DNA of 64,000 nucleotides from Hymenobacter montanus. Its GTDB lineage: Bacteria > Bacteroidota > Bacteroidia > Cytophagales > Hymenobacteraceae. Position numbers and translations under genes: made by a program. Shown here in pieces: positions 11,617-22,254 of this stretch (position 1 is the first letter of the stretch; every line of letters starts with the position of its first letter). Under the pieces are notes generated by a model. The model was not told where the DNA came from. It saw only the letters and a list, made by a program, of their open reading frames with translations, and searched no databases. The stretch lies in NCBI RefSeq assembly GCF_014699115.1, contig NZ_JACXAD010000012.1:1-64000 (forward strand). Direction: 5' to 3'.

Positions 11617-12096
11617 TCAGTTTGCCGTGGCTGGGTGCGGTGAGCTGCTGCGGGCGGGTGTCGCTCCGGGGGCCGCCGGGCGCTCGGGGGAGGCCGCAGC
11701 CGCCCCGGGCGCAGCCGTTGGCGCCGCCGCGGGTGCGGCCGATGGCTCCGGGGAAGCGGACAGAGCCGATGGGTTGCGGGTATTGGCAATGAAATCCCCG
11801 TTCAGGCTCAGAACGTCGCCTTCCTGAAATTTTACGCGGGTACCATTGGCGAACACGACCGACTTGGAGCGGTAGTCTATCCGAACGCCACTAGGCAACA
11901 TGATGTCCCTTTCCAAGGGCTTGGTTTTGCTACCATTTCGAATGATTAAGGCATTATCCTGCAACGTGAACCACGGCAGGGAGCCGGCCGATTCGGCAGA
12001 GGAAGCTTCCTCGAGCGCTTGAGCCCTGGCCTGAGAAAGGCTGCTGATCGACAACAGAATAATGAGTAGAAACGAGATAAATAAAGGGGATTTCAT
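11617..12096 (-). CDS. Secreted DUF6799-like protein
   Basis: A 159-residue exported protein. It has a signal peptide (SPLFISFLLIILLSISSLSQ), a short conserved domain at about 48-110 and an Ala/Pro/Ser-rich tail. The domain (IIRNGSKTKPLERDI, then LPSGVRIDYRSKS, then VKFQEGDVLSLNG) aligns with the protein at 15508-16101 and with the pseudogene at 13345-13986. It looks like the DUF6799-type beta repeat common in Hymenobacter secreted proteins. The family label is from memory and of moderate certainty; function is unknown. The upstream DNA (12097-12328) is AT-rich, with no further gene. Confidence 0.65.
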   Translation of the reverse strand: MKSPLFISFLLIILLSISSLSQARAQALEEASSAESAGSLPWFTLQDNALIIRNGSKTKPLERDIMLPSGVRIDYRSKSVVFANGTRVKFQEGDVLSLNGDFIANTRNPSALSASPEPSAAPAAAPTAAPGAAAASPERPAAPGATPARSSSPHPATAN

Positions 12097-12328
12097 AATT
12101 GATTATAGTAGTTATGGTTAATTTAATTTATTATAAGGTAGGATGTTATAAAGTAGAAAGCCTAACAAAGATACCACGTCAGCGCTTACGCTACCCCAGC
12201 CTTGATTATGTTTTAGGTGAAGCGGTGGAAATGCCAAGTTAAAGAGACTATTCGCTCGATCGTGACGGCGAGGGGTGGTTCTTCGCCTTATTTTTGAGCT
12301 CCCACTTCCTGGACTCCCTCTGCCACCC

Positions 12329-13336
12329 ATGCCCACTTGGACCCTGACCTCGCACCTGCTGCCCCTGCGCTTTGTTTGGAAAATTTCCCGCAACGCATCG
12401 GCTACCAAAACCAATTTGCTGGTGCTGGTGGCGGGCCACGGGCACCGCGGGCTCGGCGAGGCCGCCCCTAATGTGCGCTATGGCGAGTCGCCGGAGCTCT
12501 TGCAGCAGCAGTTTGAGTTGCTGCAGGCCCAGGGCTTGTCCGGGATTGATTCGTTGGATGAGCTGGATGCCTTGCTGGGCCGGCAGCCCGTGGCCCACGC
12601 CTTGCGCTTCGCCCTGGAAGCCGCCCTGGTGCAGTGGCTGGCCAACCGGGCGGGTCAGCCGGTATGGCAATGGCTGGGGGTGGTGCTGCCTACCCACCGG
12701 GTGCCCACCGCCTTTTCGCTGCCCATTATGGAGCCCAGCGCGGTAGCCGGGTTTTTGCGCGAGCAAAACGCGGCCCGCTTCCACTTGCTAAAAATCAAAG
12801 TCAACCAGGCGCAAGGGCTTGACTTGCTGCGGGAAGTGGCCCGGGCCCTGCCCGGCCACGCCTTGCTGGTAGATGGCAACGAGACCTGGCCCGACGCCGA
12901 CGGCGTACTGCAGTTTCTGGAGCAGGCCACCGCCCTGCCGGGGCTGCACCTGCGCCTGCTGGAGCAGCCGTTACCGGCGGACCAAGCCGCAGACTATCGC
13001 TACCTGCGGCCCCGTAGCGCCGTGCCGCTGCTGGCCGACGAATCGGTGACCGACACTGCCGATTTCGCCGATATCGCCCAGCAGTTCCACGGGGTGAATG
13101 TGAAGCTGATGAAGGCCGGGGGCTTCCGGCGCGGCATAGAGCTGCTGCGCCAAACGCGCGCGCATGGCCTGCTGCCCATGCTGGGCTGTATGGTGGAGAC
13201 GAGCGTGGGCATTGCGGCGGCCCTGCAAATCAGCTCCCTGGCCGACGTTCACGACCTGGACGGTTTCCTGATTGTGCAGGACGAGCCGTTTGGAGTGGTG
13301 GAGGAACAGGCCGGGGAGCTGTTTATCCGCGGGTAA
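12329..13336 (+). CDS. Dipeptide (L-Ala-D/L-Glu type) epimerase
   Basis: A 335-residue member of the enolase superfamily, muconate-lactonising subgroup. The start is the ATG at 12329 (MPTWTLTSHLLPLRF). Visible catalytic features are the KxK motif in LLKIKVNQ (about 152-159), the metal ligands in VDGNETWPD, the Glu of RLLEQPLP and the Asp of ADESVTD, the second base Lys in VNVKLMKAGG (about 252-261), and GCMVETS near the end. This set matches L-Ala-D/L-Glu epimerases, which epimerise murein-derived dipeptides for recycling or catabolism. Its last roughly 130 bp are also present as a decayed fragment at 15378-15499, which shows a local duplication. Confidence 0.88.
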   Translation: MPTWTLTSHLLPLRFVWKISRNASATKTNLLVLVAGHGHRGLGEAAPNVRYGESPELLQQQFELLQAQGLSGIDSLDELDALLGRQPVAHALRFALEAALVQWLANRAGQPVWQWLGVVLPTHRVPTAFSLPIMEPSAVAGFLREQNAARFHLLKIKVNQAQGLDLLREVARALPGHALLVDGNETWPDADGVLQFLEQATALPGLHLRLLEQPLPADQAADYRYLRPRSAVPLLADESVTDTADFADIAQQFHGVNVKLMKAGGFRRGIELLRQTRAHGLLPMLGCMVETSVGIAAALQISSLADVHDLDGFLIVQDEPFGVVEEQAGELFIRG

Positions 13337-13344
13337 CCAATAAC

Positions 13345-13986
13345 TTAATCCGGGGCCATTGGCTGGGCCTCCAGCTGGGCGAGTTGGTCGTCGATGGCTT
13401 TCGTATTGGGCAGCTCCGTGCGGCCCTGGCTGAGGAGTTTGACTTTCTGGGTGAGCAAGTCCACCTTTTTACTGAGTAGCCGCACCTGCGCGTCGGCTGC
13501 TGACGCTGGAGAAGTCAGGTTAATGTAATTGGCGCTCCGTGGTACGGTACGCATTTGGAGCCCGTCGCATTCGTCGCCTTATTGGCATCGCCCCGGGCGG
13601 CTGCCGTGCTGGCTGGGGTGGCGAAGACGGTGCTGCCATCGGCGCGAACAAAGCCGCCTTCCTGCAGGGGAATTTTCTTATCCTTGGGATATAGTTTATT
13701 CGGCTGGTATTTGTACTATTTTATAGTTAATTTTGAAGTTGTTAGCCAGCTTGACGTCGTGGGTGAGGGGATCAGCTGGTTACTCTCGCGTTGCACCACT
13801 TCGCCGTCTTTGAGCACAAACGGGCTGCGCGCAGTGGTTTTGACAGCGTAGCCGCCCTCCTGCGCCGCCGCGTGATGAGGAGCTGTAACCAAGTAGGCGG
13901 CCGCGAGCATCGCGAAGATAAAGTGGTTGATAAAGCAAGGGACAAGCTTAGTATAATAGGATAATACATAGGCTGCCCGGTATTGC
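13345..13986 (-). pseudogene. Decayed copy of DUF6799-like gene 15508-16101
   Basis: The two ends are clearly homologous to the intact gene at 15508-16101. The N-terminal part reads INHFIFAMLAAAYLVTAP and GGYAVKTTARSPFVLKDGEV; the C-terminal part reads KKVDLLTQKVKLLSQGRTEL and is almost identical. The start codon has changed from ATG to ATC, and frameshifts and stops break the middle (about 13555-13715), so no full product is possible. It lies 8 nt after the epimerase stop codon, in the same relative place as the intact gene follows the epimerase fragment in copy B. Confidence 0.88.
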
Positions 13987-14080
13987 ATAATCACAATGTC
14001 AAAAAAAATAAAGAATTAGCTAAAACGATGTTGTGACGTTAAGTGTAGACCTATAGATTTGCAGGGTTCCGCTGCCTCTT

Positions 14081-14149
14081 ATGAGCAGCGAAGGCGAAAT
14101 TAACCAGCCGATTTTTCGCAATGAACACCAGTAAGGCTCACATCACTCT
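14081..14149 (+). pseudogene. 5' remnant of marR (copy of 16264 gene)
   Basis: The first 17 codons (MSSEGEINQPIFRNEHQ) match the start of the intact MarR gene at 16264 (MRIEDEIKQPVFRNEYQ). A single T inserted after the CAG codon then produces an immediate TAA, while the nucleotide match continues out of frame to about 14149, where low-GC DNA begins. The upstream TTG and TAGATTTG promoter elements (about 14031-14061) are kept, but the 20-bp palindrome of copy B is not. Confidence 0.85.
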
Positions 14150-14163
14150 TTAAAAACACTTTT

Positions 14164-15066
14164 ATGAAAAAGATTTTACTCTTTATTTTTTTCCTTGCAA
14201 GCCTGCAGACGGCTTTTGCACAAGCTCCGGTCATTGAAGGGGATATAAGACTTTGTGCTTATACAAACGGGACCGCTCGCGTAACAAACCCTACATCTGC
14301 CAGTTATCAGTGGTATGTAAAAAGGTACTGGTTTAACGAAGCGCCTTATGTGCCAATTCTCGGAGCTACAGGGCCTACTTTTACTTATGACTGGTTTCAC
14401 TATGATCAGACTCTGCTTAAGGTAGTAGCTACCTTAAATGGTGTAAGTACCGAGTCAAATACTATTCGGATTGACAGTTATGCATTTGCTGGATTAACAA
14501 TAGCAACGCCTGTAACGCCATTTCTTGTTTATAACTCACAAGCGGGTCTTTGGTATCTTTGTCCGGGGCATAGCGTTGATATACGCATGAACAACCCTCC
14601 CTATAGTATTATTCAATGGTATAAAAACGGCCAGCCAATTCCCGGAGCCATTTCAGCGACTTATACCATTTCCGAACCTGGAAATTATTATGTTGTTGCG
14701 TCCCCTGGTTTATGCCCAAATCTTTCTTTTCAAGAGCCAGGTAGTGGGATGAGGGTAGTCTGGAATCCTAATCCAAATAGCTGCAATGCTCTAGGGACTG
14801 CTAATCCCGAAATGGAGTTGGTTGTAAATTTATATCCTAATCCGGCAAAAGACAGACTTACTTTAGAACTGCCTCATAATGCAAATTTTACAAGTTATAG
14901 CATTCTAGATATTTCCGGTAAGGTTATAAGCCATGATAATCTGTCTCTATCAAATACGGCTATTAAAACCGGCCAGTTAAAGACCGGCCATTTATCAAGC
15001 GGTTTTTATATGCTTAGGCTGGAAGGAGAAAAAACAAGTATCTTCAAAAAATTTATTAAAGAGTAG
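14164..15066 (+). CDS. Secreted Ig-like protein with T9SS sorting tail
   Basis: A 300-residue exported protein. It has a signal peptide (KKILLFIFFLASLQTAFAQ), two immunoglobulin/PKD-like beta domains at about 22-105 and 115-190 (each with a QWY motif, SYQWYV and IIQWYKNG), and a C-terminal type IX secretion sorting domain from about 218 (VVNLYPNPAKDRLTLELP, then ILDISGKVIS, ending FYMLRLEGEK...FKKFIKE). It should be secreted through the outer membrane and anchored on the cell surface. Its DNA is markedly AT-richer than the neighbours, and it sits exactly between two pseudogenes of a duplicated block, so it is probably a transferred insertion. Ligand unknown. Confidence 0.82.
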   Translation: MKKILLFIFFLASLQTAFAQAPVIEGDIRLCAYTNGTARVTNPTSASYQWYVKRYWFNEAPYVPILGATGPTFTYDWFHYDQTLLKVVATLNGVSTESNTIRIDSYAFAGLTIATPVTPFLVYNSQAGLWYLCPGHSVDIRMNNPPYSIIQWYKNGQPIPGAISATYTISEPGNYYVVASPGLCPNLSFQEPGSGMRVVWNPNPNSCNALGTANPEMELVVNLYPNPAKDRLTLELPHNANFTSYSILDISGKVISHDNLSLSNTAIKTGQLKTGHLSSGFYMLRLEGEKTSIFKKFIKE

Positions 15067-15068
15067 TA

Positions 15069-15249
15069 ATGAAAAAAATCTTGCTGCCCGCCCTGTTTGC
15101 TGTTGCTGTCCGTCACGGGTAAGGTCATCATCAATCGCATTAAGTACGGCGTGAAGTCCGGCCCGAAAACTTTCTTCGATACTATTGGCGACCGGGCTAT
15201 CAACGATGATTTTGACCTAACCTTTAAAATCATCACCGAAAAAATTTAA
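15069..15249 (+). pseudogene. Internally deleted yceI copy
   Basis: It begins with an ATG and the signal-peptide start of the intact yceI at 16830 (MKKILLPALFAVAV). It then jumps to that gene's last third (INRIKYGVKSGPKTFFD, then NDDFDLTFKIITEK) and ends in TAA at 15247. About 460 bp of the middle is missing, and the join is out of frame. It starts 3 nt after the T9SS gene. Confidence 0.88.
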
Positions 15250-15306
15250 GGCGGCCCGGCCTAGCAACCCGGATTTCCTCGGTTGCCTCGGCCTGGGTTC
15301 GAGACG

Positions 15307-15343
15307 AATAAAAAAAGCCTGTTCTGACCAGGCTTTTTTTATT
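15307..15343. terminator. Bidirectional rho-independent terminator
   Basis: A 15-bp stem (AATAAAAAAAGCCTG at 15307-15321 with its complement at 15329-15343) with a 7-nt loop TTCTGAC. The A tract on one side and the T tract on the other would stop transcription from both directions, insulating copy A from copy B of the duplicated block. Confidence 0.85.
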
Positions 15344-15377
15344 CGGGCAGGGGAAGCAGCGGGGCCGCTCAATCCAG

Positions 15378-15499
15378 GCGTGGGCATTGTGGCGACGCTA
15401 CAGCTAAGCTTTCCAACGGACGTCCACGACCTGGCCGGCTTCCTGCATTGTAAAAGACGAGCCATTTGGAGTGGGAGAGCAGGCCGGGGAGCTGTTTAG
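15378..15499 (+). pseudogene. 3' fragment of epimerase gene
   Basis: About 120 bp align with the end of the epimerase gene (13204-13336), including TCCACGACCTGG, GACGAGCC, TTTGGAGTGG and CAGGCCGGGGAGCTGTTTA. Indels break the frame, and no upstream part of the gene is present. Confidence 0.85.
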
Positions 15500-15507
15500 C
15501 CCCGCGC

Positions 15508-16101
15508 TTACTTCGGGGCAATAGTGCTGGGCTGGGCCTCCAACTGGGCGAGCTGGTCGTCGATGGCTTTCGTGTCGGGCAGCTCCGTGCGGCCCTGGCT
15601 GAGGAGTTTAACTTTCTGAGTGAGTAAGTCCACCTTTTTGCTGAGTAGCCGCACTTGCGCGTCGGCCGCCAATGCTGGTGCCGTCCGGGCGGTATAGTTG
15701 GCGCTCTGCCGCACGTACTTGGGGGCCGGTGCAGTGGTTGCCGAAGTGGCTTCGCCGCGGGCGGCAGCAGCGCTGGCCGGGGTGGCGAAGACGATGCCGC
15801 CATCAGCGCGGACAAAGTCGCCTTCCTGCAGGGTGATTTTCTTGCCCTTGGGATAGAGTTTATCGGCCGGCATTTCCACAATACCATTTTTGTAGTTGAT
15901 TTTGACGCCGTTGGCTAGCTTGACGTTTTGGGTGAGGGGGATTAGCTGGTTGCCCTCGCGCTGCACCACTTCGCCGTCTTTGAGCACAAACTGGGTACGT
16001 GCGGTGGTTTTGACGGCGTAGCCGCCATCCTGCGCCGCCGCTTGGCGAGGAGCGGTAGCCAGGCAGGCGGCGGCGAGCAGCATGAAAATAAAGCGGTTCA
16101 T
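15508..16101 (-). CDS. Secreted DUF6799-like coiled-coil protein
   Basis: A 197-residue exported protein. The ATG at 16101 (MNRFIFMLLAAACLATAP) gives a clean signal peptide, so the longer frame upstream is not used. The domain at about 25-95 consists of short beta units (FVLKDGEVVQREGNQLIPL, KLANGVKINYKNGIVEMP, KKITLQEGDFVRADGG). It is followed by an Ala-rich linker and a Lys/Leu heptad stretch (about 150-178, QVRLLSKKVDLLTQKVKLL) that should form a coiled coil. The domain matches the protein at 11617-12096 and resembles DUF6799. Function unknown. It is divergent from marR across about 160 bp, so the MarR operator could also affect it. Confidence 0.75.
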   Translation of the reverse strand: MNRFIFMLLAAACLATAPRQAAAQDGGYAVKTTARTQFVLKDGEVVQREGNQLIPLTQNVKLANGVKINYKNGIVEMPADKLYPKGKKITLQEGDFVRADGGIVFATPASAAAARGEATSATTAPAPKYVRQSANYTARTAPALAADAQVRLLSKKVDLLTQKVKLLSQGRTELPDTKAIDDQLAQLEAQPSTIAPK

Positions 16102-16211
16102 TGGGTAAAGGACAAGAGTAGGTAAATAGGGGGCAATACGCATTCCAGGGTCGGTCAGGCACCTTGTGAGTCAAATAGAAGCAAAAATCTTTGAAATTAA
16201 TCTGAGCGATG

Positions 16212-16242
16212 TTGCAACATTAAATGTATGTACATACATTTG
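16212..16242 (+). promoter_or_regulatory. marR promoter overlapped by 20-bp palindromic operator
   Basis: TTG at 16212-16214 and TACATTTG at 16235-16242, separated by 20 nt, form a Bacteroidota-type promoter. A perfect 20-bp palindrome, AAATGTATGT followed by its complement (16222-16241), covers the spacer and most of the -7 box, and an 8-bp palindrome GTTGCAAC (16211-16218) covers the TTG. The ATG of marR follows at 16264. A MarR dimer bound here would block its own promoter, so autorepression is likely. Confidence 0.75.
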
Positions 16243-16263
16243 CAGTCGATTCCTCTGCCTCTT

Positions 16264-16716
16264 ATGCGCATCGAAGACGAAATTAAACAGCCGGTTTTTC
16301 GCAATGAATACCAGAAGGCCCACATCAATCTGGTGTACACCGCCGGGTGGTTGCAACTGCGCCAGGCCGCGGCATTCAAGCCCTTCGGCCTCACCCTGCC
16401 CCAGTTTAACATTCTGCGCATTCTTCGCGGGCAGCATCCCCGGCCGGCCACCGTGGCCCTGCTAATCGACCGGATGCTGGACAAAACCAGCAACGCCTCC
16501 CGAATTGTGGACCGGTTGGAAGAAAAGCAGCTCGTGACGCGCACCGTGTGCCCGGCCAACCGCCGGGCCGTCGACATCCGCATCACTAAGGCTGGGTTGG
16601 ACCTGCTCGACCGGATCGAGCAAGCCAACATTACACCCTCCGGTGTCGAGCAGCTTAGCGAGGCGGAAGCACAGCAGCTCAATGCCTTACTCGACAAGGT
16701 GCGTACGGTTGAGTAA
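16264..16716 (+). CDS. MarR family transcriptional regulator
   Basis: A 150-residue winged-helix repressor. I use the ATG at 16264 (MRIEDEIKQPVFRNEY); an earlier start would lie inside the promoter palindrome. The HTH spans about 50-80 (TLPQFNILRILRG, then LLIDRMLDKTSNASRIVDRL) and the wing about 85-105 (KQLVTRTVCPANRRAVDIRI). MarR proteins are dimeric and release DNA on binding small phenolic or oxidant signals. It is followed on the same strand by yceI (gap 113 nt), a pairing often seen in Bacteroidota, so it likely controls yceI. Confidence 0.9.
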   Translation: MRIEDEIKQPVFRNEYQKAHINLVYTAGWLQLRQAAAFKPFGLTLPQFNILRILRGQHPRPATVALLIDRMLDKTSNASRIVDRLEEKQLVTRTVCPANRRAVDIRITKAGLDLLDRIEQANITPSGVEQLSEAEAQQLNALLDKVRTVE

Positions 16717-16829
16717 AGGTAGATATCGATTAACTACTTGCGCGGACGCTTTTGGCACATTTCTTCGTTGCCGTGCGCTGGTCCTTTTGCTTCTTTTTTT
16801 ACTACTTACTTTTTAAAATCTTTTTTCAG

Positions 16830-17474
16830 ATGAAAAAAATTCTGCTGCCCGTCCTGTTCGCTTTTGCCGTGCTTGGCGCGGCACCCGCTGCTTCAGCCCA
16901 AAAAATGAACAGCGAAAAAATGGCCACCAACGCGCCGGCCTATAAGCTGCAGCCGCAGCTGAGCTCCTTGGGCTGGGAAGGCAAGGCCGTAACCCACGGC
17001 CACAACGGCACCATAAACTTCACCGATGGAGAACTGCTGGTAAAAGGTAACGCTGTGGTGGGCGGCACCGTGACCGTGGACATGAAGAGTATTAAGGCCA
17101 CCGACATTAAGGATGCCGAAAGCCATACCAAGTTTGTGGGCCACATGAGCGGCGACGACTTTTTCGGCGTGGAGAAAAACCCCACCTCCACCTTTAAAAT
17201 CGTGAGTGTAACGCCCCTGAAAGGCGCCACCAAAGACGGAAACAACGCCACCATTACCGGCGACATGACCATCAAAGGTGTAACGCAACGCATCAGCTTC
17301 CCCGCTAAAGTAGGCGTGAAGGGCGGCGTGGCCTCCGCCCAAGGCAAGGTGACCATCGATCGTACCAAGTTCGGCTTGAAGTACGGCTCGAAGACCTTCT
17401 TCGACAGCATTGGCGACAAGGCTATCAACGACGATTTTGACCTGACCTTCAACGTTATCGCCAAAAAATCTTAA
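16830..17474 (+). CDS. YceI family periplasmic protein
   Basis: A 214-residue exported protein. The start is the ATG at 16830 (MKKILLPVLFAFAVLGAAP), which gives a signal peptide with a cut near ASAQ. The mature part is the YceI lipocalin-like barrel, which binds isoprenoid or amphiphilic ligands. Recognisable stretches are LGWEGKAVTHGHNGTINFT, HMSGDDFFGVEKNPTSTF, GDMTIKGVTQRISFPA and the C-terminal NDDFDLTFNVIAKK. A decayed copy lies at 15069-15249. Expression is probably MarR-controlled from the upstream operator. Confidence 0.9.
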   Translation: MKKILLPVLFAFAVLGAAPAASAQKMNSEKMATNAPAYKLQPQLSSLGWEGKAVTHGHNGTINFTDGELLVKGNAVVGGTVTVDMKSIKATDIKDAESHTKFVGHMSGDDFFGVEKNPTSTFKIVSVTPLKGATKDGNNATITGDMTIKGVTQRISFPAKVGVKGGVASAQGKVTIDRTKFGLKYGSKTFFDSIGDKAINDDFDLTFNVIAKKS

Positions 17475-17480
17475 GCCGAA

Positions 17481-17905
17481 TTACAGCGGGCTGGCCTGGC
17501 TGTATAGTCCCGGTATGAGGCGGGTCGGGTCTCGGGTAAAGATAGTCGGGTTCCGTTGCCACTGAGCACAGACGAGCTCGTATGGGGTCAAGCCGCCCAG
17601 GGCCTTGACCCCATACGAGCTCGTCTGCGTTCTGGTAATAAAAGCGCTGGTGGCTTCCTTGCTGGTGCGGTTCCTGCGCTCGACTTGGCTGTTAATCCAC
17701 GGGTGCGCTGGTGTGGTTAGACGGTGCGCCACGCCGTATTCGCAGCAGATGCAGTCAACGCAGTGGCCGCCGGGCGGGAATTGAGGCGCTCGCGGGCTGA
17801 ACGGCACTCCGTTGTCGCTCAGTACTGTTTGGACCTGATAGGGGAGCGTTTCGAGTACGCGCCGCCGAAATTCGGCGGCCACGAGGCTGGAGAGCAGCGG
17901 CCGGG
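17481..17905 (-). pseudogene. IS481-type transposase fragment with fold-back
   Basis: The minus-strand frame encodes the C-terminal half of a DDE integrase-core transposase of IS481 type. It contains TVLSDNGVPFS with the second catalytic Asp (codon near 17816), then YGVAHRLTTPAHPWINSQVE with the catalytic Glu, then GGLTPYELVCAQW, ending IPGLYSQASPL. The N-terminal half with the HTH and first Asp is missing. Between the Glu motif and GGLTPYE, about 40 expected residues have been replaced by an inverted copy of the following DNA (see the repeat at 17569-17627). It cannot be an active transposase. Confidence 0.85.
17569..17627. repeat. Perfect 24-bp inverted repeat inside transposase remnant
   Basis: The arms 17569-17592 and 17604-17627 are exact reverse complements around an 11-nt centre. 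In coding terms the DNA for LTPYELVCA is followed by its own reverse complement, which is read as QTSSYGVKA. This is the footprint expected of a replication template switch, not of an insertion-sequence end. Confidence 0.9.
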
Positions 17906-17929
17906 CCTGCCGGGCCTCGGGGCGCCGGC

Positions 17930-18299
17930 CTACCGTGCGGCCACCGCACCCAGCGCCCGAGCGCATCGGCCACCACATGTAGCCTGCTGGTCAAGCCGCG
18001 GTGCCCGAGGGCGTGCGGCCTGTTTTTGTGCGTGCTCCGCTGGCGTGTTGGCGGGCCCACGCCGTGGTCGAGTCCAGCCGCAGCGTGTGTCGGGCGTCTG
18101 CTTGCTGCCCCGCCGCCCCAGCGCCCGGGCCCACCCCCGCGAGGCGGTCCAGGTGGCCGGCAAGGCCCGCCCGCGGCAACCTAGTGCCCGACTTCGACTA
18201 AGCTGCGGCTGCGTGGCCTGGTCCACCTTTCGTGCCTTCCCGACTCGGCAGCAGGGGGGCAATCCGTGCCCGCTGCGCCTCCGTCAACAAATAGGTCAT
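17930..18299 (-). pseudogene. IS5-type (IS427 group) transposase remnant
   Basis: Reading down from the ATG at 18299, the sequence begins MTYLLTEAQRARIAPLLPS, the typical start of IS427-group transposases. After frameshifts it continues LDSTTAWARQHASGAR, ALGHRGLTSRLHVVADALGRW. Several frame changes and the loss of the C-terminal half make it non-functional. It abuts the IS481 fragment on one side and the IS982 element on the other, so this spot has taken several insertions. Confidence 0.75.
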
Positions 18300-18309
18300 C
18301 CCCTACTAC

Positions 18310-19246
18310 CTAACCCAAGTTGCGGCGTAGTGTAAGGACAAAAAAAGTCTGTTCCGGCACGGAACAGCTAGGTTTGAGGTCTTCGACCACACTCACTCCT
18401 AGGCCCCATGACAGAACAGACTGTGGCAATGTACTGCTTCCTCGACGATTTTTTACGCCTCACGCGCCCACCGGCCCCGCACCGGCGCCACCTCTCCGAC
18501 GCCGAAGTGTTGACGACGGCCTTGCTGGCGGCGCGTTTTTTCGGAGGCAACTTGGCGGCGTCCCGCCGCTACATGGAGCAGCACTGGGGCATGAAGCGGG
18601 TTGATAAGAGCGGCTTTACGCGCCAGCTGCACCGCTTGCACGCGACGCTCCAGGTCTTGTTTTTGGCCCTGGGCCACCACCTGAAGACCCTCAACCCGCA
18701 GGCCCGCTATGTCATCGATTCGTTTCCCGTCGCTGTCTGCGACAACGTGCGCATCCAGCAGTGCCGCTTGCTCGAAGGCGAGGCCTACCGGGGCTACTCC
18801 GCCAGCAAGCGCTGCTACTTCTAGGGCTTCAAGGTACAGGTGCTCATGACCCATGATGGGCTACCCGTTGAGCTATACATCCACGCTGGCAGCGAAGCGG
18901 ACATCACGGGCCTGCGGGTCTTAGGGCCGCAGCTACCGGCCGGAAGTGTGCTGTATGCCGACGCGGCCTACACCGATTATGCCTTCGAAGATGCGTGGCG
19001 GGAAGCGGAGCAAGTTTGCCTGTTGGCTGAGCGCAAAAGCAACAGCAAACGGCCGCATGAACCGTGGCAAAACTTTCTCATACAGCACTTTCGCAAAGGC
19101 GTAGAAACGACTATCAGCCAAATCACCGAGCGCTTTCCCAAGTCCATTCACGCGATCACGGCCCAGGGATTTGCCCTAAAACTCCTGCTGTTTGTCTTCA
19201 CCCACACCCTCGCCCAACTCGGGGCTTAGTCCGCAACTTGGGTTAG
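18310..19246 (+). mobile_element. IS982-family insertion sequence
   Basis: The 937-bp element is bounded by perfect 16-bp terminal inverted repeats, CTAACCCAAGTTGCGG at 18310-18325 and its complement at 19231-19246. The element proper may start at the ACCC two bases in, as is usual for IS982. It contains one transposase frame broken by a stop codon. No target-site duplication is obvious, which fits insertion into already scrambled DNA or later loss of one flank. Confidence 0.85.
18408..19229 (+). pseudogene. IS982 transposase split by an in-frame amber codon
   Basis: The frame starts at ATG 18408 (MTEQTVAMYCFLDDFLRL) and stays in one phase to 19229, giving about 273 residues, but TAG at 18822-18824 interrupts it. 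The context is SKRCYF-stop-GFKVQVL. IS982 transposases normally have RYFYGFKLH here, so a Tyr codon has become TAG. The DDE elements are present on both sides: IDSFPVAVCDN before the stop, and LYADAAYTD and the region of ISQITERFPKS after it. No other damage is visible, so the lesion is recent or read through at low level. Confidence 0.88.
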
Positions 19247-19413
19247 ATAGTTTGCCTATCCTCGATTTATTATGCGGTCGGAAAGATTTTATAATAGTTA
19301 AGGTATAACGGTTGATTAATTAAATTGAGTATATAATATTGTATTTGCTGACATTAGTCAATTTATTTTTTATATCGTTTCCATCCACTTAATTGTTTCT
19401 TTACTTTGACTCG

Positions 19414-19977: not shown

Positions 19978-20344
19978 AAAGGATTAGTAGAAGCAGGAGA
20001 TTTAGCGGTCACCAAATTTGGGTCTGAGGTAGGGCCTTCAGCTGAAAAGCTGGCAGCTAGAACAAGTATGAAAGCGGGTAAACTTACTTACTGGCGCTAA
20101 AATCGGCGAAGTGGTAGGATGGGGAACAGGTTAGCAAACCGCACAACAAGCAATTAATGTGACAAAGAGTCTGACACAAGGGCAAGTGCAGAAAATGATA
20201 GAATAGGGCCTTACCAAAACGAAAGTACAGAACTTAATTACTGAATACTCTGCTAGATTAGTTGAGGGAGGTAAATACTTAAACAACCAAGTAATGGCGC
20301 CTAGAAAATAACTCCTAGGAGCAACTATAAGAATGTGGCCATGA
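19978..20344 (+). pseudogene. Decayed C-terminal tip of a polymorphic toxin
   Basis: Two frames together read as one toxin-like C-terminus. The first is GLVEAGDLAVTKFGSEVGP...MKAGKLTYWR. After one frameshift near 20085-20095 the second reads IGEVVGWGTG, stop, QTAQQAINVTKSLTQGQVQ, stop, GLTKTKVQNLITEYS...NQVMAPRK, stop, LLGATIRMWP and a final TGA at 20342-20344. The three internal stops (20132, 20204, 20309) each need one base change. The pattern GWGxG...TxxLT...GLT...PRxxL...WP is one I know from tips of Rhs and related secreted toxins. The final TGA overlaps the start of the immunity gene as ATGA. Confidence 0.7.
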
Positions 20345-20832
20345 TTGACTCTTCACTACCAACTGTCCTGAATCATTTATCACTCTACTGGAAAGAACGT
20401 TCCATCTTTTCTTCGTTTAACACAGTTGAGTTCATAAAGCATTTTGAAGATGAAAATGGCGTCAAATTGCCAGAAGATATATCCTGTTTTTACAGTTTAC
20501 TCGATGGAATGCCTTCTATTTATCCGCATGATACTGACGAAGAGGGTTTTTCATTCAAGGAATTAGCAATGATGCACATTAAGCGAGGGAATTATAAAAT
20601 ATGGGACGGGCAGGAATTTCAGACTATCCATGTGAACGTTTTGCCTTTTTGCGACTACATGCAATTATCATGGGAATACGCCTTCGTTTTCCCATGGTCC
20701 ACTGATTCTCAATATATCGTATGTATAATGCCTACGACTGACAGCCTAACTCCTTTATGCGACAGGCTTTCAACTTTTCTGAACCATTATATGGATGATG
20801 ATGATGTCATTTATAATTACAAGATGGAATAA
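20341..20832 (+). CDS. SUKH (SMI1/KNR4-like) immunity protein
   Basis: A 163-residue cytoplasmic protein. I choose the ATG at 20341 (MIDSSLPTVLNHLSLYW) because it forms an ATGA overlap with the stop of the toxin remnant, the usual arrangement of toxin and immunity genes; ATG 20335 is also possible. The SUKH pattern is visible: FEDENGVKLPEDISCFYSLL, then DGMPSIYPHDTDEEGFSF, with a Trp/Phe-rich core later (LSWEYAFVFPWSTDS). SUKH proteins neutralise diverse secreted nuclease-type toxins by direct binding. The toxin next to it is dead, so this gene is an orphan that could still protect against kin toxins. Confidence 0.8.
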   Translation: MIDSSLPTVLNHLSLYWKERSIFSSFNTVEFIKHFEDENGVKLPEDISCFYSLLDGMPSIYPHDTDEEGFSFKELAMMHIKRGNYKIWDGQEFQTIHVNVLPFCDYMQLSWEYAFVFPWSTDSQYIVCIMPTTDSLTPLCDRLSTFLNHYMDDDDVIYNYKME

Positions 20833-21021
20833 ATATTTATCAAAGCTCGCATCAGATAAACATTCATTTAGGGGTAAATATTTGATTTTTAATAATTTAT
20901 AGAATGATTATTCATCTCAATTTTAGCTATTGTGACATCTAGGAGAAACTCGTTAAATTGCTTCGATAACAACTGCTCACAGTGAGGTTGTCTCATAAGC
21001 TAACTCTTGTTAATTAATAGT

Positions 21022-21549
21022 ATGAATTCTGTTTTGAAATTTGTGCTCTTTATAATTTGTGTAGCGTCACACTACAAATGTATTGCACAACCCCAAAAAA
21101 TACTTTCTCAACGTTTAGTGAGAAATACCGTTATAGATTCAATTAAAGTACCACTCAGACTTGAAATACACATTGCAAAGAAGATATTCTCCTTAAATGA
21201 GAGAAGTATAATGATTTCACTCGATGCAATTAATCAAACTGATACACCTCTTTTAATTAGCGATCCTAAATTTTCTGCATCGACGCAACTGATACTAAAA
21301 AATAATGGCATTCTAGTGCCATCTGTAAAAATCAAGCCTATTTTAAGTAATCTTAACGAGTTAGTCTCTATAAAGCCGAATAGCAAATATAGTACAGTGT
21401 TTTCCTACCCAATAGAAAAATATTTTTCAAAAATATCTTATGGTAAATATGAGGTTCAGGCTGAATATTCTGGCAATGTATTTATAAATAAAACACCTTA
21501 TTCTGCAAGTGCCATGACAAGCAATACTTTTTATTTTGTTGTCCAGTAG
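21022..21549 (+). CDS. Exported hypothetical protein, low-GC
   Basis: A 175-residue protein. The ATG at 21022 (MNSVLKFVLFIICVASHY) gives a signal peptide with a possible cut near CIAQ. The mature part is a beta-sandwich-like domain (RSIMISLDAINQTDTPLLIS, then GKYEVQAEYSG) of the kind found in periplasmic Ig-like proteins. No named family is recognised. Its low GC and its place between an orphan immunity gene and an Rhs fragment suggest it is cargo of the same island, perhaps a second, periplasmic immunity factor, but nothing proves that. The 20833-21021 spacer is AT-rich and empty. Confidence 0.5.
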   Translation: MNSVLKFVLFIICVASHYKCIAQPQKILSQRLVRNTVIDSIKVPLRLEIHIAKKIFSLNERSIMISLDAINQTDTPLLISDPKFSASTQLILKNNGILVPSVKIKPILSNLNELVSIKPNSKYSTVFSYPIEKYFSKISYGKYEVQAEYSGNVFINKTPYSASAMTSNTFYFVVQ

Positions 21550-22254
21550 ACAAAGAGTGTTAGATACTGTACGACCCGGGGGCTCACTTCTGACCTGGGG
21601 CAGGCTGTGGGCGGCAGCCTGGGCACGGCCGGCAGCAGTGGTCCCGATAACCGGCCGGCCGGGCAACGGCGGTGGTTGCCGTCGATCACAGCCGGGGTGG
21701 CCGTAGCCTGGGAGAAGCTGCGGGGGCTGTGGGGCAAACCGCAGGCCACGCCGCAAGCCAGCTTAACCTATGAGCTATACACGCAAGACAGTGTGCTGGT
21801 CAAGCGGGCCACCTGCTCGTTATCGGCTACGGGGGAGGCGGAGTGGCAGCAGTTGCAGCAGGGGTTTCGGGCCAGGGAGGGGGGGTATGTGCAGGTGTAC
21901 CTGGCCAACGCCAGCGCCACCAACGCCTGGTTTGACGACCTACAGGCCGAGGTGTTTCCCGTGCTTACCCAGCAGGAAAACCACTACGACCCCTTTGGCC
22001 AGAACCTGCCAGAAATCGAGCTCACCAGTGCCACTGATAGAAAGGAGCAGTACACCGGGCAAGAGAAAGTCGATGAGTTTGGCCTTAGTCTAGCTGATTA
22101 TAATCCGCAGTATTATGATTTTCAACTAGGCTGCTTTCAAGGAATCGACGCTGATGTAGCTTCCTATATTTCACAAAGCCCGTATAATTACTGCCTTAAC
22201 AATTCGGTTGGCCATGCCGACCCTGACGGAAAGAACCCCCGTTACCTGGTATGA
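21550..22254 (+). pseudogene. Rhs-repeat core fragment
   Basis: The frame is open from 21550 (first usable start GTG 21607) and encodes about 215-235 residues. The end is the RHS-associated core: NHYDPFGQNLPEIE, RKEQYTGQEKVDEFGLSLAD, YNPQYYDFQLGCFQGIDADV, NNSVGHADPDGK. Full Rhs proteins are over 1000 residues, with YD repeats before this core and a toxin after it; both are missing. The GC content jumps up at about 21570. The stop TGA (22252-22254) overlaps the CoA-transferase ATG. It is the core that should precede a toxin tip, yet it lies downstream of the tip remnant at 19978-20344. Confidence 0.8.

Follow-up and report, generated by a model that had tools for sequence, protein, structure and literature searches.

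What history can leave two neighboring versions of one gene set in a bacterial genome, one of them largely in ruins? This question is raised by a stretch of the Hymenobacter montanus genome, referred to here as the window, which comprises 64,000 nucleotides (assembly GCF_014699115.1, contig NZ_JACXAD010000012.1, positions 1 to 64,000 of the forward strand) and contains an epimerase-like gene, a gene for a protein of the DUF6799 family, marR and yceI, followed by a second version of the same block. A preliminary description of this DNA proposed that the two copies had shared out their losses so that each gene survives once, as a small case of duplication, degeneration and complementation (DDC), a term used, in an excerpt of one source, for a gene whose two copies degenerate until their functions complement each other (PMC2213666). 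According to the analysis summarized below, the locus very probably goes back to a tandem duplication in an ancestor with a single array, after which one copy (A) decayed and the other (B) stayed intact under selection.

The duplicated unit and its edges

The two copies are adjacent, in the same orientation and in register, as seen from direct repeats and pairwise alignment, with copy B at 15378-17478 in this one Hymenobacter-type bacterium. The features that define the unit are:

13203-15375, no strand: copy A of the unit, decayed, with a probably foreign gene inside (from repeat families D1-D9, pairwise alignment and alignment of its tail to another contig of this genome, C22)
12329-13336, + strand: epimerase-like gene (enolase superfamily, MR_MLE_C), intact (Pfam PF13378, 3.9e-23)
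15378-15512, + strand: 3' piece of the epimerase that opens copy B on its left side and carries a stop and indels (from repeats and alignment)
15305-15345, no strand: terminator-like inverted repeat behind copy A yceI (inverted repeat I3)
15339-15375, - strand: 3' end (last ~37 bp) of gene X, convergent, downstream of yceI (from the alignment to C22:26547-26650 and the gene X frame on C22)

Eight of the nine direct-repeat families, with identities of 76-89%, have a spacing of 2164-2225 nt, and the ninth, at the start of yceI, one of 1761 nt. A global alignment of 13150-14165 in copy A with 15325-16360 in copy B, a span that includes short non-homologous stretches at either end, contains 782 identical bases among 952 aligned (82.1%), which together with the register of the repeats bears out the earlier view that the copies lie side by side.

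The extent of the copies is read from two edges. On the left, homology between them starts at 13203 and 15378, within the epimerase. On the right, copy A, which had been described as ending at 15249, runs on past yceI to 15375, through the terminator-like repeat and into the end of gene X; this tail (15262-15375) aligns to C22:26547-26650 with a score of 72, compared to a maximum of 27 in 200 shuffles, and similar repeats are seen by eye at the terminator position behind yceI in relatives. The unit spans about 2.2 kb: it starts with the final 134 bp of the epimerase and stops with the final ~37 bp of gene X. At the junction the gene X tail extends to 15375, the epimerase piece begins at 15378 and two bases lie between them. 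A junction at which the right end of a unit meets its own left end is the signature of a tandem duplication. Misassembly was considered and, judged from the assembled sequence, rejected, as 16% of aligned sites are different between the DUF6799 copies and both are located within a 152-kb contig.

The position of the left edge also determines how the epimerase fragment is to be read. Because the unit begins inside the last 134 bp of this gene, copy B never had a whole epimerase to lose, and its portion of only ~130 bp is best read as truncated and non-functional from birth. Within 11703-18978, epimerase matches comprise only the intact gene and residues 293-332, and no second trace of the first ~870 bp was matched within these limits. 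On the other side of the epimerase, at 11617-12096, there is a second, diverged DUF6799-type gene that falls just under the Pfam cut-off, and a number of relatives have a match to it at that place.

Genes retained and genes decayed

The remaining genes of the unit are present in the following states:

13345-13931, - strand: DUF6799 pseudogene, copy A, with ATC for the ATG start, indels and in-frame stops
15508-16101, - strand: DUF6799 gene, intact, copy B (Pfam PF20606, 1.4e-09)
14081-14134, + strand: marR remnant, copy A, 17 codons and then a stop through a 1-nt insertion
16264-16716, + strand: marR gene, intact, copy B (Pfam MarR_2, 7.6e-12)
15069-15249, + strand: yceI pseudogene, copy A (repeats D8 and D4), with the first ~41 bp and the last ~140 bp left and the middle deleted
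16830-17474, + strand: yceI gene, intact, copy B (Pfam YceI, 1.8e-27)

Much of what the preliminary description had reported for copy A stands. Alignment to copy B confirms that its DUF6799 gene lost the start codon and acquired frameshifts (indels of 1 nt at four places, of 3 nt at one and of 6 nt at two; the matched frames contain stops), and repeats as well as alignment confirm the loss of the middle of yceI. The 1-nt insertion and the stop after 17 codons in marR were read correctly, but this gene is not merely frameshifted, since only its first ~70 bp are left, the rest is absent and a 903-bp gene follows. Similarly, the stop and indels of the copy B epimerase piece are real, but the piece marks an edge of the unit instead of the loss of a gene. 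Each of the four genes is indeed intact exactly once.

The array in relatives of Hymenobacter montanus

If the locus arose by duplication, a single array would be expected in related genomes, a check that had been proposed with the preliminary description. DUF6799 was matched in 113 of 120 genomes of the genus (this genome included), and the 29 best DUF6799 loci outside this genome, of ~3.5 kb each, served as the comparison set; second copies elsewhere in the relatives' genomes were searched for with DUF6799 only. The array epimerase-DUF6799-marR-yceI is single and collinear in all 29 of these loci and likewise single in 16 of 16 Hymenobacter loci, a set that partly overlaps the 29. Amino acid identities to all 29 relatives are 74-83% for the epimerase and 75-87% for copy B marR. 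Two genomes, G012 and G074, each have two adjacent same-strand DUF6799-type matches, perhaps separate tandem duplications of that gene.

Gene X follows yceI in all four relatives compared (of the 16 Hymenobacter), where it matches C22 of this genome, and by eye it is also present in the downstream sequences of some other relatives, not all. At third codon positions, the divergence between this genome and each of the 29 relatives is at least 45.9%, compared to 29.7% between the two DUF6799 copies (9.8% at positions 1 and 2), which places the duplication after the lineage parted from that of the nearest genome compared.

One-sided decay of copy A

Over 578 aligned bases, the DUF6799 copies share 83.6% identity, and in an unrooted tree they form one group, with support of 100 on the branch that parts both from all 29 relatives; in the short trees of the epimerase and of yceI, the two copies come out together as well. 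By using the relatives as outgroups with a 70% majority, 44 of the 95 differences between the DUF6799 copies could be assigned to one copy, 44 were ambiguous and ~7 were set aside, the site being represented in too few relatives. Thirty-nine of the assigned changes fall on copy A and 5 on copy B (ratio 7.8, p 1.4e-7), with a distribution over codon positions 1/2/3 of 11/12/16 in A and 0/0/5 in B (10/12/16 in A, and B unchanged, with the other end-gap setting in the alignment). In a control of 43 pairs of intact relatives at 8-22% divergence, which are not independent of each other, this ratio was 1.00-2.07, and the imbalance between A and B persists at other thresholds (44 to 8 at 0.6; 20 to 1 at 0.9). 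At the same 70% majority, the start of marR has 3 changes in A and 1 in B, the end of yceI 22 in A and 3 in B, and the end of the epimerase 15 in the copy B fragment and 2 in the intact gene. The synteny in relatives, the grouping of the DUF6799 copies and the one-sided changes uphold the earlier claim of a duplication caught in mid-decay.

Several observations nevertheless weigh against a tandem duplication followed by plain neutral decay of copy A. The changes of A at DUF6799 positions 1 and 2 make up 23 of 39 (0.59), inside the range of intact pairs (0.33-0.70), even as the codon-position contrast between A and B gives p 0.019; in the tree lengths for this copy, the proportion of positions 1+2 to position 3 (0.115/0.473) is close to that of the tree as a whole (3.17/13.76). 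The codon contrast pooled over four genes is weak (47 changes at positions 1+2 and 32 at position 3 in decayed copies, 4 and 7 in intact ones), and third positions are uneven (16 in A, 5 in B, p 0.027), for which saturation and codon-use selection may be the explanation. The comparison also contains no close relative (third positions are at least 46% apart), leaving room for an origin of the second copy in an unsampled sister lineage. The DUF6799 gene of copy A may therefore have been functional or constrained for part of the time since duplication. The other remnants are more relaxed than their trees, with lengths at positions 1+2 and 3 of 0.243/0.519 for the epimerase fragment (tree 4.33/13.3) and 0.199/0.377 for yceI (tree 1.05/7.57).

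In raw counts, G/C-to-A/T changes outnumber A/T-to-G/C changes in decayed copies (51 vs 19) and in intact ones (8 vs 3), so this lean is not special to decayed copies. It agrees with a general AT bias in bacterial mutation described in an excerpt of a source that calls pseudogenes a problematic gauge of it (PMC2936535).

The marR promoter and the gene that follows it in copy A

The region upstream of marR and the gene that now lies behind its remnant contain the following features:

16212-16242, + strand: marR promoter, copy B, TTG-N20-TACATTTG, with the palindrome AAATGTATGTACATACATTT at 16222-16241, at the -7 box
14031-14061, + strand: former marR promoter, copy A, with TTG-N20-TAnnTTTG kept and the palindrome ATGTANNTACAT lost
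14164-15066, + strand: probably foreign gene, 300 amino acids, with a C-terminal type IX secretion sorting domain (Por_Secre_tail, 2.2e-13)

We take the upstream TTG box to be a promoter element. The downstream box, TAnnTTTG, is the -7 consensus reported, in an excerpt, for flavobacterial sigma A (PMC9723704). TTG-N17-23-TAnnTTTG is found upstream of marR in 26 of the 29 relatives (not in L029, L030 and L033), and ATGTANNTACAT lies upstream of marR in copy B and in 28 of 29 relatives, touching or overlapping the TAnnTTTG-type box; the relative without the palindrome is L030. The extended promoter pattern has exact matches in 88 of 120 genus genomes and a single one in this genome, the copy B site. 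This conserved palindrome is likely a MarR operator, predicted here for the genus, in which case copy A, where both promoter boxes are present at unchanged spacing, would have lost a MarR autoregulatory site. Elsewhere, a 29-bp match at C9 resembles, by eye, a chance match around a start codon.

The 903-bp gene unrelated to the array begins 29 nt after the marR stop of copy A, has a GC (guanine plus cytosine) content of 0.404 compared to 0.597 for the window, and encodes a product with, by eye, a signal-peptide-like start. In 119 other genomes of the genus, the best match among those listed has E 1.2e-14 and covers residues 23-187; the nearly full-length matches listed are weak (27-29% identity, E 1e-8 to 1e-6), and most are to the tail domain. 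In a sample of 395 genomes from the phylum, homologs with 44-46% identity along all or most of the protein (E 1e-61 to 3e-69) occur in three genomes, all belonging to one genus in another family of the class, at loci with a GC content of 0.27-0.39, and another genus has five weaker matches; no relative was found in a plasmid collection. With its closest relatives outside the genus and its deviant composition, the gene was probably acquired horizontally.

Proposed sequence of events and competing explanations

The starting point was very probably a single array of epimerase (+), DUF6799 (-), marR (+), yceI (+), a terminator and gene X (-). A tandem duplication of ~2.2 kb fused the epimerase and gene X at their 3' ends and made DUF6799, marR and yceI redundant. 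The set beside the intact epimerase (A) then decayed, perhaps after both sets had worked, as B stayed under selection; most of copy A marR, which would once have been whole, would have been deleted, with a probably foreign secreted-protein gene now standing there, and next to the insertion-sequence-like DNA an insertion or a rearrangement would have parted copy B from gene X. The order of these later events is a suggested one. Illegitimate recombination may have been the mechanism of duplication; with only two bases between the edges and so much divergence between the copies, it cannot be read directly.

That both copies were complete and that each gene was then lost once, from one copy or the other, is very improbable, even if each of the four genes being intact exactly once is what such a history would leave. 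What speaks against complementation is that the duplication never took in the whole epimerase: homology begins inside this gene, no other trace of its 5' part was matched within 11703-18978, and the left edge of B lies two bases from the gene X tail, as expected of the edge of a unit. In addition, the other three genes all decayed in the same copy. It is also improbable that one block came from a close, unsampled sister lineage, carried on a circle or fragment, and was integrated beside the resident block by homologous recombination. Such an integration would give the same arrangement and junction, and the large and unevenly split divergence of the copies is in keeping with it, but the DUF6799 copies are sisters and no foreign backbone was found at 15375/15378. 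The gene trees clearly displace neither side: this genome is placed beside L021 by the epimerase (support 58) and by marR plus yceI (88), and beside L018 by DUF6799 (52), all weak placements. Copy B as foreign DNA was likewise rejected, there being no clear sign of it in these weakly supported trees.

A further proposal, compatible with tandem duplication and decay of copy A, is that this copy was kept since the marR promoter, without its repressor site, drives the foreign gene. This is possible but rather unlikely. The 29 nt between the marR stop and the foreign start leave little room for a promoter of its own, the promoter boxes were retained in A as the palindrome was lost, and the foreign frame is open over 300 codons, but nine fixed promoter bases at ~80% identity would survive by chance in ~1 of 8 cases. 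More doubtful is a redundant copy serving as a landing pad, in which a gene for a type IX secreted protein would have replaced marR behind a duplicated promoter that lacks its operator.

The break downstream of copy B

From ~7.9 kb, or further left, as far as copy B yceI, the order in the window agrees with that in the four compared relatives. In three of the four, the order after yceI continues along C22, where a recR-like gene (named from reading the translation) is next after gene X; in the fourth, L051, gene X alone matches C22. The ancestral downstream neighbor of copy B is now on that other contig, a break that the preliminary description did not mention. The break itself contains:

17479-18335, no strand: insertion-sequence-like block behind copy B yceI (transposase end by eye; repetition)

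Pieces of this block recur at six places on five other contigs, and one of them, 17980-18089, is 93% identical to C22:26407-26516, just upstream of gene X, so that fragments flank the break on both sides. No Pfam family was matched in 17481-17978. The block is taken for insertion-sequence remains from its appearance by eye and its repetition, and the break may reflect an insertion or rearrangement beside this DNA, in which the DNA itself could have had a role.

Other features were noted in this region. Within the block, 17564-17632 is a near-perfect inverted repeat (29-bp arms, 93%, 11-nt spacer), perhaps a rearrangement scar. An insertion sequence with 21-bp terminal inverted repeats (95%) occupies 18305-19251, with DDE_Tnp_1 in its second half and an in-frame stop near 18822 before it. 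At 20335-22254, an SMI1/KNR4-type gene is followed at 21607 by a frame that resembles, by eye and with no Pfam match, the end of an RHS-repeat protein, possibly the remains of a toxin-immunity island.

Relation to known systems and significance

The locus is best viewed as an ordinary tandem duplication in which one copy decayed, to which a probably foreign gene and, later, a break were added. It shares with other bacterial tandem duplications that form pseudogenes the in-register copies, one intact and the other with start loss, frameshifts and deletions, but differs in that the decayed copy persisted to a third-position divergence of 29.7% and holds a probably foreign gene. As in DDC, a duplication comes first and every ancestral gene is left with one intact version, but no gene is intact in both copies or has two copies sharing functions, and three genes decayed in one copy. 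The related repeated fragments at both edges of the synteny break resemble insertion-sequence-associated rearrangement or insertion, but here they are fragments only, recognized by eye and by repetition. Literature searches on duplicate fate, on MarR and YceI in Bacteroidetes and on Hymenobacter pseudogenes gave no title on this locus among the matches listed.

The locus provides a case of bacterial duplicate decay that is rooted by outgroups and in which intact and decayed copies stand side by side. It also illustrates a trap, since a partial gene at the border of a duplicated unit can mimic a lost gene and hint at complementation where none exists. The conserved palindrome before marR offers a testable pair of regulator and site in the genus. 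If the landing-pad proposal is true, a decaying duplicate would be an unrepressed expression site for an acquired gene, with the intact copy keeping the original regulation.

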